64,000 nucleotides of DNA, taken from NCBI GenBank assembly GCA_003388555.1, contig QQVD01000057.1:107192-171191 (forward strand), in the 5' to 3' direction. Source of the DNA: Acidobacteriota bacterium. Its GTDB lineage: Bacteria > Acidobacteriota > Thermoanaerobaculia > Multivoradales > Multivoraceae. Shown here in pieces: positions 58,435 through 64,000 of this stretch. Made by a program: the position numbers and the translations under genes. The notes under the pieces are model-generated. The model was not told the DNA's origin. It saw only the letters and a list, made by a program, of their open reading frames with translations, and did no database searches. Positions within the stretch are counted from its first letter, which is position 1. The number at the start of each line of letters is the position of its first letter.

Positions 58435-58511
58435 CGGGACGTGGCGCAGCCTGGTAGCGCACCTGAATGGGGTTCAGGGGGTCGCGAGTTCGAATCTCGC
58501 CGTCCCGACCA
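58435..58511 (+). tRNA. tRNA-Pro (anticodon GGG)
   Basis: It starts CGGGACGTGGCGCAGCCTGG and its 7-bp acceptor arm closes with CGTCCCG, discriminator A and an encoded CCA. The anticodon loop ATGGGGT between CCTGA and TCAGG gives GGG. The T arm GCGAG-TTCGAAT-CTCGC is standard. Confidence 0.95.
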
Positions 58512-58844: not shown

Positions 58845-60092
58845 ATGAAGCACTCCGACCCGCCTCCCGGTTGGCGCCAGACGATCGCCCGGGCGACCTC
58901 GCTGCGCCGCGAGCTGCACCGAACGCCCGAGCTCGCCTGGGAGGAGCACGCGACGGCGGCGCTCATCCGCGCCGAGCTGGATCGGCTCGCGATCGGCTGG
59001 CGAGCCTGCGCCGGCACCGGCACCCTCGCGACACTGGCGGCGGCGGCCCAGGGCCGTCACGTCGCCCTGCGCGCCGACATCGACGGACTGGCGATCGACG
59101 AGGCGGGGCGACACGCCTGGCGTTCGCAGGTGCCGCACCGCATGCATGCGTGCGGCCACGACGGCCACAGCGCTGCGCTGCTGGCCACGGCTGCCTGGCT
59201 GAGGCGCCATGAGGCGGAGCTGCCGGGCCCGGTGACCCTGATCTTCCAGCCGGCGGAGGAGGGCGGGCACGGCGCCCGACGCATGGTGGAGGAGGGTGCC
59301 CTCGACGGGGTCGACTGTGTGTTCGGCTGGCACAACTGGCCGGCCCTCCCGTTCGGCACCGCCCTCTGCCCCGACGGCGTGGTGATGGCCGCGAACGGCA
59401 CCTTCCGGATCACCGTCGAGGGTCGCGGTGGCCATGCCAGCCAGCCCGAGGCCTGCCGCGACCCGGTGCTGGCGGGAGCCGCGATCACGGTGGCGTTGCA
59501 ACAGGTCGTCAGCCGCCTGAGAGCGCCGCAGGAGGCGGTGGTGGTCAGCGTCACCAGCTTCGACGCACGCGGCCCCGAGACCGTGATTCCGGACCGCTGC
59601 ACCCTCGCCGGCAGCATCCGCCTCTCGGACGAGAGTTTGCGTCGAGCCGTCGAACGCGATATCTCTCGAGTGGCGGCATCGACCGCGGAGGCGCACGGCG
59701 TCACCGCGACGGTGGAGCATTTTCCGCGCTACTCGGTCACCCGCAACCACGCCGAGGAGGCCTCGCGGTATCGCGCCGTACTCGCCGCCGAGCTCGGCAG
59801 CGCTTGGCGCGCCAACGCGCCGCTGCCGATCATGGCGTCGGAGGACTTCGGCGTCTACCTGGAACACCGGCCGGGCGCCTTCGCGCTGGTCGGTAGCGAC
59901 CCCGGGGACGGCACGGCACATCCCTGCCACAGTCCCCACTACGACTTCAACGACGCCCTCCTGCCGCGCGTGGTCCGAATCTACAGCCGCCTGGCCGGGC
60001 TCTCCGGTCCGTCCTCACCGACCTGCGGCGACCACCGTTCCGACTCGACCGATCGCGGCTCTGACAGGGAAGGAAGCGAGATCGCCAGATGA
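58845..60092 (+). CDS. M20 amidohydrolase, candidate N-acetyl-diaminobutyrate deacetylase (DoeB2-like)
   Basis: A 415-residue M20 peptidase-family metalloenzyme. Metal-site motifs: RADIDGLAI, ACGHDGHSA (about residue 102) and FQPAEEGGHGARRM, plus SEDFGVYL near the end. The family includes N-acyl amino-acid deacetylases. Its place in front of an EctB-like transaminase, a DoeA-like hydrolase and an aldehyde dehydrogenase suggests it removes acetate from N-acetyl-2,4-diaminobutyrate in ectoine breakdown, as proposed for M20-type DoeB2. Start ATG 58845; a longer frame upstream looks non-coding. The stop overlaps the next ATG (ATGA). Confidence 0.78.
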   Translation: MKHSDPPPGWRQTIARATSLRRELHRTPELAWEEHATAALIRAELDRLAIGWRACAGTGTLATLAAAAQGRHVALRADIDGLAIDEAGRHAWRSQVPHRMHACGHDGHSAALLATAAWLRRHEAELPGPVTLIFQPAEEGGHGARRMVEEGALDGVDCVFGWHNWPALPFGTALCPDGVVMAANGTFRITVEGRGGHASQPEACRDPVLAGAAITVALQQVVSRLRAPQEAVVVSVTSFDARGPETVIPDRCTLAGSIRLSDESLRRAVERDISRVAASTAEAHGVTATVEHFPRYSVTRNHAEEASRYRAVLAAELGSAWRANAPLPIMASEDFGVYLEHRPGAFALVGSDPGDGTAHPCHSPHYDFNDALLPRVVRIYSRLAGLSGPSSPTCGDHRSDSTDRGSDREGSEIAR

Positions 60093-61429
60093 CCACGACC
60101 CTCGATGCGAAGAAGACCACCGTCAGCGAGAAGCCGGCGCCCGAGCTCGCCCCGGCGCGTGACAACGACACCACCATCTTCGAGGCCCGCGAGTCGGAGG
60201 TCCGCGGCTACTGCCGCGCCTTCCCGACCGTGTTCGAGAGTGCCTCGAACGCCCGCCAGGTCGACGAGCTCGGGCGAAGCTACATCGACTTCTTCGGCGG
60301 CGCTGGGGTGCTCAACTTCGGTCACAACAACGAGCGCATGAAGCGGGCGATGATCGAGTACCTCGAGCGCGACGGAGTCGCCCACAGCCTCGACATGTAC
60401 ACCACAGCGAAGCGGGGCTTCGTCGAGCGCTTCACCGAGGTTGTGCTCGAGCCGCGCCGCATGCCGCACCGGCTACAGTTCGTCGGCCCGACCGGCACCA
60501 ACGCGGTCGAGGCGTCGCTCAAGCTGGCGCGCAAGATCACCAAGCGCTCGACCGTCGTGGCGTTCACCTCCGGCTTCCACGGCATGACGCTCGGCTCGCT
60601 CGCGTGCACCGCCAACAGCTACTTCCGCAGCGCCGCGGGGGTGCCGCTCGAGCACGTCGTCAGGCTGCCGTTCGAGACCGCACCCGGCGGCGGTATCGCG
60701 GCCCTGGAGGCCTACGACGCGGCGCTCGCCGATCCGTCGAGCGGGCTGGCGCCTCCTGCCGCCTTCCTGGTCGAGCCGGTGCAGGCGGAGGGCGGCGTGC
60801 ACGTCGCCAGCGGCGAGTGGCTGAAGGCGGTGCAGGATCTCGCCCGTAGGCACGGGGCACTGCTCATCCTCGACGACATCCAGGCCGGCTGCGGACGCAC
60901 CGGCTCCTACTTCAGCTTCGACGGTCTCGGCGTCGAGCCCGACATCGTCAACCTGGCCAAGGGCGTCGGCGGCTTCGGCACGCCCCTGGCGCTCAACCTG
61001 ATCCATCCCGAGCACGACCGCCACTGGTCGCCGGGAGAGCACACCGGGACCTTCCGCGGTCAGGGCCTGTCGTTCGTCGCCGGGCGCGAGGCACTGTCGT
61101 ACTTCGTCGGCGACGAGCTGATGGACGACGTGCGCCGCAAGGGCGAGCGCATGGCCGGCGCGCTCGCCGAGCTGGCCGAGGAGCTCGCCGAGCATCGCTT
61201 CGAGGTGCGCGGCAAGGGGATGATGCAGGGGCTCGACGTGGTGCATGGCGGGCTCGCCAAGGACGTGGCGAAGCGTTGCTTCGAATCGGGGCTGCTGATC
61301 GGCCCGTGCGGCAGCGGCGGCCGGGTGCTGAAGCTGATCCCACCGCTGACGACGCCGGACGAAGACCTCGAGGAGGGTCTCGAGCTGCTGGCGTCCTCCG
61401 TGCGCGCCGCCGTCGCCGCCCACTCCTGA
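60089..61429 (+). CDS. EctB-type 2,4-diaminobutyrate transaminase in a catabolic cluster (DoeD role)
   Basis: A 446-residue class-III PLP aminotransferase. The stretch TNAVEASLKLARK after FVGPTG, FHGMTLGSLACT, the IDDIQAGCGRTGSYFSF segment and FGHNN/GAGVLNF match EctB, which normally makes diaminobutyrate from aspartate semialdehyde and glutamate. No ectA or ectC is nearby, so the reaction likely runs in the reverse, catabolic direction. The PLP lysine is in NLAKGVGGFGTPL. About 30 extra residues at the N-terminus are low-complexity. The ATG overlaps the previous stop by 4 bases. Confidence 0.82.
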   Translation: MTTTLDAKKTTVSEKPAPELAPARDNDTTIFEARESEVRGYCRAFPTVFESASNARQVDELGRSYIDFFGGAGVLNFGHNNERMKRAMIEYLERDGVAHSLDMYTTAKRGFVERFTEVVLEPRRMPHRLQFVGPTGTNAVEASLKLARKITKRSTVVAFTSGFHGMTLGSLACTANSYFRSAAGVPLEHVVRLPFETAPGGGIAALEAYDAALADPSSGLAPPAAFLVEPVQAEGGVHVASGEWLKAVQDLARRHGALLILDDIQAGCGRTGSYFSFDGLGVEPDIVNLAKGVGGFGTPLALNLIHPEHDRHWSPGEHTGTFRGQGLSFVAGREALSYFVGDELMDDVRRKGERMAGALAELAEELAEHRFEVRGKGMMQGLDVVHGGLAKDVAKRCFESGLLIGPCGSGGRVLKLIPPLTTPDEDLEEGLELLASSVRAAVAAHS

Positions 61430-61451
61430 CAGAAGACCGAGGAGGCGAGCG

Positions 61452-62726
61452 GTGCGCAAGCGCGACGACATGACCTTCCCGCCGGAGGAGTACGAGCGGC
61501 GGCTGCACGAGCTACGCGAGCGGATGCAGAGGCGCCTGCTCGACGCGGTGGTGATCTCGGACCCCGAGAACCTGATGTACCTCACCGACTACCAGACCAC
61601 GGGCTACTCCTTCTTCCAGGCCCTGGTGGTGCCCCTGGAGTCGGATCCGTTCATGGTCACCCGCCGGCTCGAGGAGACCAACGTGCACGCCCGCACCTGG
61701 GTCGAGCTCACCAGGCCGTACCCCGACACCGGTGACGCGATCCAGATGCTGGTCGAGAGTCTGCGCGAGTTCGGTCTGCTCGGTGGTGCCATCGGCTACG
61801 AGCGCAACAGCTACTTCTTCGCCGCCTACCACCAGGACGCCCTGCACAGCGCGATCGCGGCGAGCCCCGGCCGCGGCCGGCTCAGCGACTGCTTCGGCAT
61901 CGTCGAGGAGGGGCGGGTGCGCAAATCGAAGCCGGAACTGGATCTCATGGCGCGGGCGGCGAAAGCGACAGAGGCCGGCATGTCGGCGGGGATCGAGGCG
62001 TGCGCCGCAGGGGTCACCGAGAACGAGATCGGCGCCGCGATCAGTGCCGCGATGTTCCGTGCCGGCGGCGAGCCGCCGGCGGTGATGCCGTACGTGACGT
62101 CGGGGCCGCGTTCGATGATCGGCCACGCCACCTGGGAGGGGCGCGAGGTGCGGCCCGGCGAGCACGTGTTCCTCGAGGTCGGAGGCTGCGTGCGTCGCTA
62201 CCACACCGCGATGATGCGCACGGTGGCGCTGTGCGATCCGACCCCGTCACTGGAGAAGGCGCAGGCACGCATGAAGACCGCCCTGGCCGAAGTGCACCGC
62301 ACCCTGAGGCCGGGGCTGACCGTCTCCGACGCCGACAACCTGGTGCGCAACATCATCACCGACAACGATGTCGGCGCCTCGCTGATCACGCGCTCGGGCT
62401 ACTCGATCGGCATCGCCTTCCCGCCGAGCTGGGACGAGGGCTACATCATCAGCCTGAAGCAGGGCGACTCCCGGGTGCTCGAGGAGGGGATGACCTTCCA
62501 CATCATTCCCTGGATGTGGGCCGTCGACGGGGACAAGACGGTGGGCATCTCGGACACCATCGCGATCACCGCGAACGGCTGCCGCTCGTTCTTCGGCCTC
62601 GATCTCGACTTCGTCTACAAGCCGGAAGCTGCGGTCGCGGAGCAGGTCGACGCGAGCCAGACGAGCCGCTCCGACGGCAGGCCTCCCGGCGGCTCCACGG
62701 AGACCGAGGAGGCGCAGCCGTGTTGA
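61452..62726 (+). CDS. doeA: ectoine hydrolase-like M24 family protein (DoeA-like)
   Basis: A 424-residue creatinase/aminopeptidase-P-fold protein. The N-terminal domain has AVVISDPENLMYLTDYQTTGYSFFQ, close to DoeA, which opens the ectoine ring to N-acetyl-diaminobutyrate. In the C-terminal pita-bread fold the two Asp metal ligands of prolidases are replaced (FLEVGGCVRRYHTAMMRT), as in metal-free creatinase-type members. A 30-residue Ser/Pro/Glu tail ends it. GTG 61452 has GAGGAGG 6 bases upstream; ATG 61470 is possible. The stop overlaps the next gene by 7 bases. Confidence 0.82.
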   Translation: MRKRDDMTFPPEEYERRLHELRERMQRRLLDAVVISDPENLMYLTDYQTTGYSFFQALVVPLESDPFMVTRRLEETNVHARTWVELTRPYPDTGDAIQMLVESLREFGLLGGAIGYERNSYFFAAYHQDALHSAIAASPGRGRLSDCFGIVEEGRVRKSKPELDLMARAAKATEAGMSAGIEACAAGVTENEIGAAISAAMFRAGGEPPAVMPYVTSGPRSMIGHATWEGREVRPGEHVFLEVGGCVRRYHTAMMRTVALCDPTPSLEKAQARMKTALAEVHRTLRPGLTVSDADNLVRNIITDNDVGASLITRSGYSIGIAFPPSWDEGYIISLKQGDSRVLEEGMTFHIIPWMWAVDGDKTVGISDTIAITANGCRSFFGLDLDFVYKPEAAVAEQVDASQTSRSDGRPPGGSTETEEAQPC

Positions 62727-64000
62727 TCGCCGTCGATCCGACCACTGGCGTCGAGCTGCGCCGCGTCGAGCCTGCGGACGAGGCGGGGCGCGAGGAGATC
62801 CTCGCTGCCGCCGCGGCCGCTGCCCCACCGTGGCGTGGCGCCTCCTTCGACCGGCGCGGCGCCCTGCTGCGCGGCGTCGCCGCGAGGCTACGTGCGGAGC
62901 GTGAGCGACTGGCGCTTCTGATGTGCGAGGAGATGGGCAAGCCGATCCGCGAAGGCCGCGGCGAGGTCGACAAGGCGGCCTGGTGTGCGGAGCACTACGC
63001 CGAGCACGGTGAGCACTACCTGGCCACGGAGAGGCTCACTTCGGACGCCAGCTCGAGCTATGTCCAGTACCTGCCACTGGGACCGGTGCTCGGCATCCTG
63101 CCGTGGAACGCGCCGCTGTGGCTGGCCTTCCGCTTCTGCGCCCCGGCGCTGATGGCCGGCAACCCGTGCGTGATGAAGCACGACCCGCACGTTCCCGGCT
63201 GCGCCGCAGCGATCGGTGCGATCTTCGACCAGGAGATCGCCGAGCACGGCGCGCCCGCCGGGGTCTTCATCAATCTGCCGCTCGCCACCGAGGACGTCGA
63301 GGAGGTGATCCGCGATCCACGGATCCGCGCCGTGTCCTTCACCGGGTCGGATCGCGGCGGAGCCGCGGTCGCGGCGGTCGCCGGATCGGTGATCAAGCCG
63401 GTGGTGCTCGAGCTCGGCGGTTCCGATCCCGGCATCGTTCTCGCTGACGCCGACCTCGACGAGGCCGCCAGGGTCCTGGCGCTGTCGCGGATCATCAACG
63501 CCGGGCAGTCGTGCATCGCAGCCAAGCGGTTGCTGGTGGAGGAGCCGGTCTACGAACCGTTCGTCGAGCGCCTCGAGGCGCAGCTCTCCGCCTTCCGTGT
63601 GGGCGACCCGCGCAGCGAGCAGACCGATGTCGGACCGATCGCCCGCGGCGACCTGCGCCGGGCGCTCGCCGCCCAGGTGGAAGAGACCGTGACGGCGGGA
63701 GCCCGCTGCCTCCTCGGTGGCGAGGTGCCGGAAGGCGGTGGCTTCTTCTACCCGGTGACGCTGCTCGCCGAAGTCCCCACCGACAGCGCGGCCTTCCGCG
63801 AGGAGACCTTCGGGCCGGTCGCCGCGGTGACGCGGGTCGGCGACGCCGAGGAGGCGATCGAGCTGGCCAACGACACCCCGTATGGCCTCGGCGCCGGATT
63901 GTGGACCCAGGCGGCCCGAGGCGAGGCGATGGCTCGCCAGATCGAGACCGGCCAGGTGGCGGTCAACGGGATCGTCAAGACCGATCCCCGCCTGCCCAGC
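62720..64000 (+). CDS. NAD(P)-dependent aldehyde dehydrogenase (partial; DoeC-like)
   Basis: The gene runs off the right edge after about 427 codons. It is an aldehyde dehydrogenase of the succinate-semialdehyde group: PLGPVLGILPWNAPLW (coenzyme domain), SFTGSDRGG, catalytic Glu in VLELGGSDP and catalytic Cys at about residue 265 in GQSCIAAKR. In this operon it may oxidise aspartate semialdehyde to aspartate, the DoeC step. GTG 62720 has GGAGG 7 bases upstream and overlaps the doeA stop. The NAD(P)-binding lysine of the usual KP motif reads MKHDP here. No stop codon is seen before the edge. Confidence 0.83.
   Translation, partial: MLIAVDPTTGVELRRVEPADEAGREEILAAAAAAAPPWRGASFDRRGALLRGVAARLRAERERLALLMCEEMGKPIREGRGEVDKAAWCAEHYAEHGEHYLATERLTSDASSSYVQYLPLGPVLGILPWNAPLWLAFRFCAPALMAGNPCVMKHDPHVPGCAAAIGAIFDQEIAEHGAPAGVFINLPLATEDVEEVIRDPRIRAVSFTGSDRGGAAVAAVAGSVIKPVVLELGGSDPGIVLADADLDEAARVLALSRIINAGQSCIAAKRLLVEEPVYEPFVERLEAQLSAFRVGDPRSEQTDVGPIARGDLRRALAAQVEETVTAGARCLLGGEVPEGGGFFYPVTLLAEVPTDSAAFREETFGPVAAVTRVGDAEEAIELANDTPYGLGAGLWTQAARGEAMARQIETGQVAVNGIVKTDPRLPS

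Follow-up and report, generated by a model that had tools for sequence, protein, structure and literature searches.

The last genes of the window (the whole 64,000-nucleotide stretch of acidobacteriotal DNA that we analyzed) raise the question of what an M20-family deacetylase, a transaminase resembling the ectoine-biosynthetic enzyme EctB, an M24-fold hydrolase and an aldehyde dehydrogenase do together, and whether their arrangement is new. The original prediction read them as an ectoine-to-aspartate degradation operon using the M20 deacetylase and the EctB-family transaminase, a reading that profile models and gene order support. We put the probability at about 0.93 that with this doeBDAC operon a bacterium that makes ectoine, a salt protectant, can also break it down.

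Layout and family assignment of the doe genes

The NCBIfam and Pfam models bore out the predicted M20, EctB-like, M24 and aldehyde dehydrogenase families, and the genes were found codirectional at the predicted place, in the order B-D-A-C on one strand (Table 1). They had been described as four overlapping genes; four-base overlaps do join doeB2 to doeD (60089-60092) and doeA2 to doeC (62723-62726), but doeD and doeA2 are separated by a 40-base gap. An alternative doeA2 start is the GTG at 61452, and doeC begins at TTG 62723 or GTG 62720 and ends at a stop codon 102 bases beyond the window (L009:5794). Upstream of the operon are a tRNA-Pro gene and, named from sequence only, MerR-like and der-like GTPase genes. 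It had also been proposed that the DNA to the right be read for an ectoine transporter or an AsnC/EnuR-like regulator; neither adjoins the operon in the window or its right-hand extension, where the nearest regulator gene downstream is PadR-like. This gene could regulate the operon here, and no counterpart turned up in the 80 related doe loci that we retained after scanning named genomes with DoeA2. Beyond it lie genes recognized by sequence alone as ribH-like and nusB-like.

Table 1. Features of the doe operon and its immediate surroundings (window coordinates)
Feature	Position	Strand	Product or description
tRNA-Pro	58435-58511		tRNA gene upstream of the operon
doeB2	58845-60092	+	M20-family N-alpha-acetyl-L-2,4-diaminobutyrate deacetylase, 415 aa
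doeD	60089-61429	+	EctB-family (class-III) diaminobutyrate (DABA) transaminase, degradation clade, 446 aa
doeA2	61470-62726	+	Divergent M24-fold ectoine hydrolase, apparently metal-free, 418 aa
doeC	62723-64102, past window end (64000)	+	Aldehyde dehydrogenase, probably aspartate-semialdehyde dehydrogenase
PadR-like gene	64288-64716 (window-equivalent; L009:5980-6408)		PadR-like regulator just downstream of doeC

Proteins were named with NCBIfam equivalog models, which have curated cut-offs, and with Pfam. The M20 protein passes the DoeB2 model NF038260 (597.7 bits; cut-off, 550), as does a Methylotuvimicrobium protein (G067; 653.6 bits), and it matches Peptidase_M20 and M20_dimer in Pfam; no match to canonical DoeB/EutE (TIGR02994, AstE/AspA type) was found anywhere in the host genome. 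The DoeB2 residues HACGHDGH, PAEE, WHNW and a C-terminal H362 are kept in 69/69 proteins. The M24 protein passes the ectoine_DoeA_2 model NF038259 (725.9 bits; cut-off, 575) but stays below the cut-off of 613 on the canonical DoeA/EutD model TIGR02993 (185.1 bits), and its best solved relative is the ectoine hydrolase DoeA (6twk/6twj/6yo9; E about 2e-43). The two unusual parts, the M20 deacetylase and the divergent hydrolase, thus already have named models at NCBI. The doeD product passes the general DABA-transaminase model NF006733 (599.8 bits; cut-off, 438) but falls under the cut-off of 552.2 on the EctB equivalog TIGR02407 (528.9 bits). The last protein is an Aldedh protein in Pfam and SSADH-like in NCBIfam, with generic scores below every equivalog cut-off; it is probably DoeC, a role assigned from position, because the order D-A2-C, with this gene third, holds in 80/80 loci. 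A second aldehyde dehydrogenase gene (G000:C31:10426-12964), 65% identical to doeC at the DNA level, adjoins another class-III transaminase gene, probably as a gabTD-like pair.

The M24 hydrolase had been predicted to have lost a metal-binding Asp. The loss is real but goes further: in an alignment all five M24 metal ligands (D, D, H, E and E) are replaced, by E236, A247, Y311, I346 and S361, so that the window DoeA2 does not have the ligand set of a metal-dependent M24 peptidase. All 80 DoeA2 proteins hold E236, A247, Y311 and S361, with I or L at position 346. Canonical EutD has E, P, Y, M and T at the five metal positions (8/8), three of three ordinary M24 proteins keep the ligands, and E236, Y311, H219, H245 and H344 are common to the DoeA2 and canonical EutD types. 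Because the ligands are replaced in both types, metal-free hydrolysis is likely a general property of ectoine hydrolases. We also weighed whether the lost Asp points to a novel or inactive enzyme and rejected this, the loss being general to these hydrolases.

By analogy with tested homologues, DoeA2 would open the ectoine ring without a metal to give N-alpha-acetyl-diaminobutyrate, from which DoeB2 would remove the acetyl group; DoeD would then pass the gamma-amino group to 2-oxoglutarate, yielding aspartate semialdehyde, which DoeC would oxidize to aspartate.

Conservation and distribution of the doe loci

Most of the 80 loci have doeB2 in front of doeD-doeA2-doeC, including those of close relatives of Methylotuvimicrobium alcaliphilum (L026, L035). 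It is missing from the front in Micrococcales (L040, L041, L044, L062, L066, L067, L072, L075, L077, L080, L083) and in Natronospirillum (L029, L037), and neither DoeB2 nor canonical DoeB scored over its cut-off in the six genomes searched among these doeB2-less loci. About 17 kb from doeD, the Natronospirillum genome shows a weak match of the AstE/AspA type (G068:C12:208982). One locus outside the usual order, L161 (G341), has doeC on the strand opposite doeD-doeA2.

Among 60 relatives of the host, DoeA2 exceeded the cut-off in the window genome only and was absent from the other 59; ectC was found in 2 of the 60. The window DoeA2 is mostly 70-80% identical to gammaproteobacterial, Limnobacter and Actinomycetota proteins (73-80% for the nearest gammaproteobacterial copies), whereas the host RpoB is 51-53% identical to those of Gammaproteobacteria and Limnobacter, about 55% to those of Actinomycetota and 78-85% within the host's order. 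Because the DoeA2 identity is high against the RpoB distance, and because DoeA2 is absent from the 59 relatives, the pattern suggests that the host lineage gained the doe operon horizontally.

Origin of the transaminase and purpose of the operon

The operon was originally said to occur without ectA or ectC. This is true of its neighborhood but not of the genome (6.8 Mb, 98.8% complete), since contig C29 (L106:4219-10563) carries a MarR-family gene, ectA, ectB and ectC in a row, followed by TRAP transporter genes. The EctA there scores 138.7 bits on TIGR02406 (cut-off, 120.6); the large permease and binding protein of the transporter pass family models, and the small subunit is assigned by position. 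The MarR-family gene stands in an EctR-like position, and the transporter is a possible ectoine uptake system. A host that only scavenges ectoine, without synthesis, was rejected on the strength of ectABC, and the host therefore has a true EctB of its own (639.5 bits on TIGR02407, over the cut-off).

This bears on the proposal that a biosynthetic-type EctB was recruited to work in the reverse direction, giving an alternative pathway arrangement. The window transaminase does belong to the same family as the EctB of ectABC (solved as 6rl5 and 9s1q) and is about 50% identical to the host's own EctB, and EctB can work in reverse (PMC3187862). However, when 80 DoeDs and 26 EctBs were placed in one tree, they formed separate clades with 100% SH-aLRT support (the tree was built by a quick method and has several long branches, yet this split is clean), and the window protein grouped with the DoeDs, not with the EctBs of ectABC clusters. 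Moreover, all 25 doe genomes searched hold two such enzymes, a true EctB that passes the TIGR02407 cut-off (628-676 bits) and a DoeD that falls short of it (505-550 bits), and the arrangement was published in 2020 (PMC7192451). The separate clades and the presence of both enzymes in every genome argue that DoeD is an old sister lineage retained for degradation rather than a borrowed biosynthetic enzyme. We regard the borrowing as very improbable; as a recent event it is contradicted by the tree, while DoeD and EctB may share an origin in the distant past.

The operon's purpose, we infer, is to clear ectoine, whether made by the cell or taken up again, once salinity drops. It could instead serve mainly for feeding on outside ectoine, as the canonical eut/ehu/ueh clusters do, and uptake is plausible because the TRAP transporter adjoins ectABC, directly downstream. 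We consider this unlikely, though it is the more serious alternative: the operon itself has no transporter or EnuR/AsnC regulator, and so far doeA2 has been found only in ectoine makers, with an ectoine synthase in 35/35 distinct doeA2 genomes (25 from one search and 13 from a class sample, 3 shared). In that sample, of the class around Saccharospirillum, DoeA2 occurs in 13 of 369 genomes, every one of which also has ectC, compared with 51/369 for ectC overall (hypergeometric p = 2e-12, with related genomes not independent), whereas the canonical EutD genomes of the same sample have ectC in 14/20 and lack it in 6/20; the contrast between the two types (p = 0.06) is not significant at 0.05, again involves related genomes that are not independent, and is suggestive only. 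Least probable of all, marginally behind the borrowed EctB, is that the cluster breaks down a compound other than ectoine, such as a different N-acyl-diamino acid or a related cyclic amidine. The M20, M24 and aldehyde dehydrogenase families are broad enough to allow it, but the closest solved structure is an ectoine hydrolase with which DoeA2 has its catalytic positions in common, a homologue hydrolyzes ectoine in vivo (PMC7192451), and every host sampled has ectoine synthase.

Recycling by an ectoine maker thus remains our reading, and the doeBDAC form travels with ectoine synthesis. We would go further only tentatively, at somewhat less than even odds, and see in the type with DoeA2, DoeB2 and an EctB-like DoeD a mobile module for ectoine recycling that crosses phyla, is confined to ectoine makers and differs in role from the scavenging eutDE. 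Methylomicrobium sp. wino1 carries, near its intact ectC, pieces of another ectoine synthase gene with internal stops (G069:C1:170917-171295), a decayed copy.

Relation to known ectoine degradation systems

The doeABXCD genes of Halomonas elongata and the eutDE-ssd-atf genes of Ruegeria and Vibrio specify the same four chemical steps, and their M24-fold ectoine hydrolase likewise has its metal ligands replaced. That canonical hydrolase is, however, only 26-31% identical to the window DoeA2, and in eight canonical eutD loci, read to a distance of about 7 kb, no EctB-family transaminase was found. The deacetylases differ too, the canonical one being of the AstE/AspA (M14) type and that of the window of the M20 type. 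The prediction that DoeB is replaced by an unrelated fold holds as to family but probably overstates the distance, as the M20 and M14-type AstE/AspA folds are probably related within the SCOP superfamily of Zn-dependent exopeptidases. In putative Bacillaceae eutD clusters, the abgB product is presumably an M20-family protein as well. Those clusters pair eutD with this amidohydrolase gene and have no eutE (PMC13188858), and their gene order and hosts differ from those of the window.

The closest counterpart is the doeB-doeD-doeA-doeC cluster of the methanotroph M. alcaliphilum 20Z, described by Reshetnikov in 2020 (PMC7192451) and also reported there from Methylophaga and Tsukamurella. In that organism mutation of doeA raised the ectoine content, and N-alpha-acetyl-DAB built up in a doeB mutant after dilution. 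Neither DoeA nor DoeB could be purified in functional form, but DoeA expressed in Escherichia coli gave N-alpha-acetyl-DAB as the only product (PMC7192451). The claim of an alternative, new arrangement therefore falls, the cluster having been described and partly tested and its parts named by NCBI.

What survives is smaller: a new host lineage, a strict co-occurrence with ectoine synthesis, and clusters in actinobacteria without a recognized deacetylase. The host adds a further lineage to the groups from which this little-studied form of ectoine breakdown had been described, and no new pathway emerges; for engineers of ectoine producers, the operon identifies which genes to remove from this organism.

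Set beside the M. alcaliphilum 20Z cluster, the window operon matches it in all four genes and in their order, its host likewise makes ectoine, and both are without an EnuR/AsnC regulator or hydroxyectoine genes (PMC7192451). Identities to the close relatives of M. alcaliphilum are 77% for DoeA2, 65-66% for DoeD, 59% for DoeB2 and 68% for DoeC. The differences are the PadR-like gene that follows the window operon and the host, which is not a pseudomonadote near the methanotrophs (RpoB about 52% identical). Because the same gene set and order were described in 2020 and the host has ectoine-making genes, the window operon is essentially ordinary, an already described and named arrangement in a new host.
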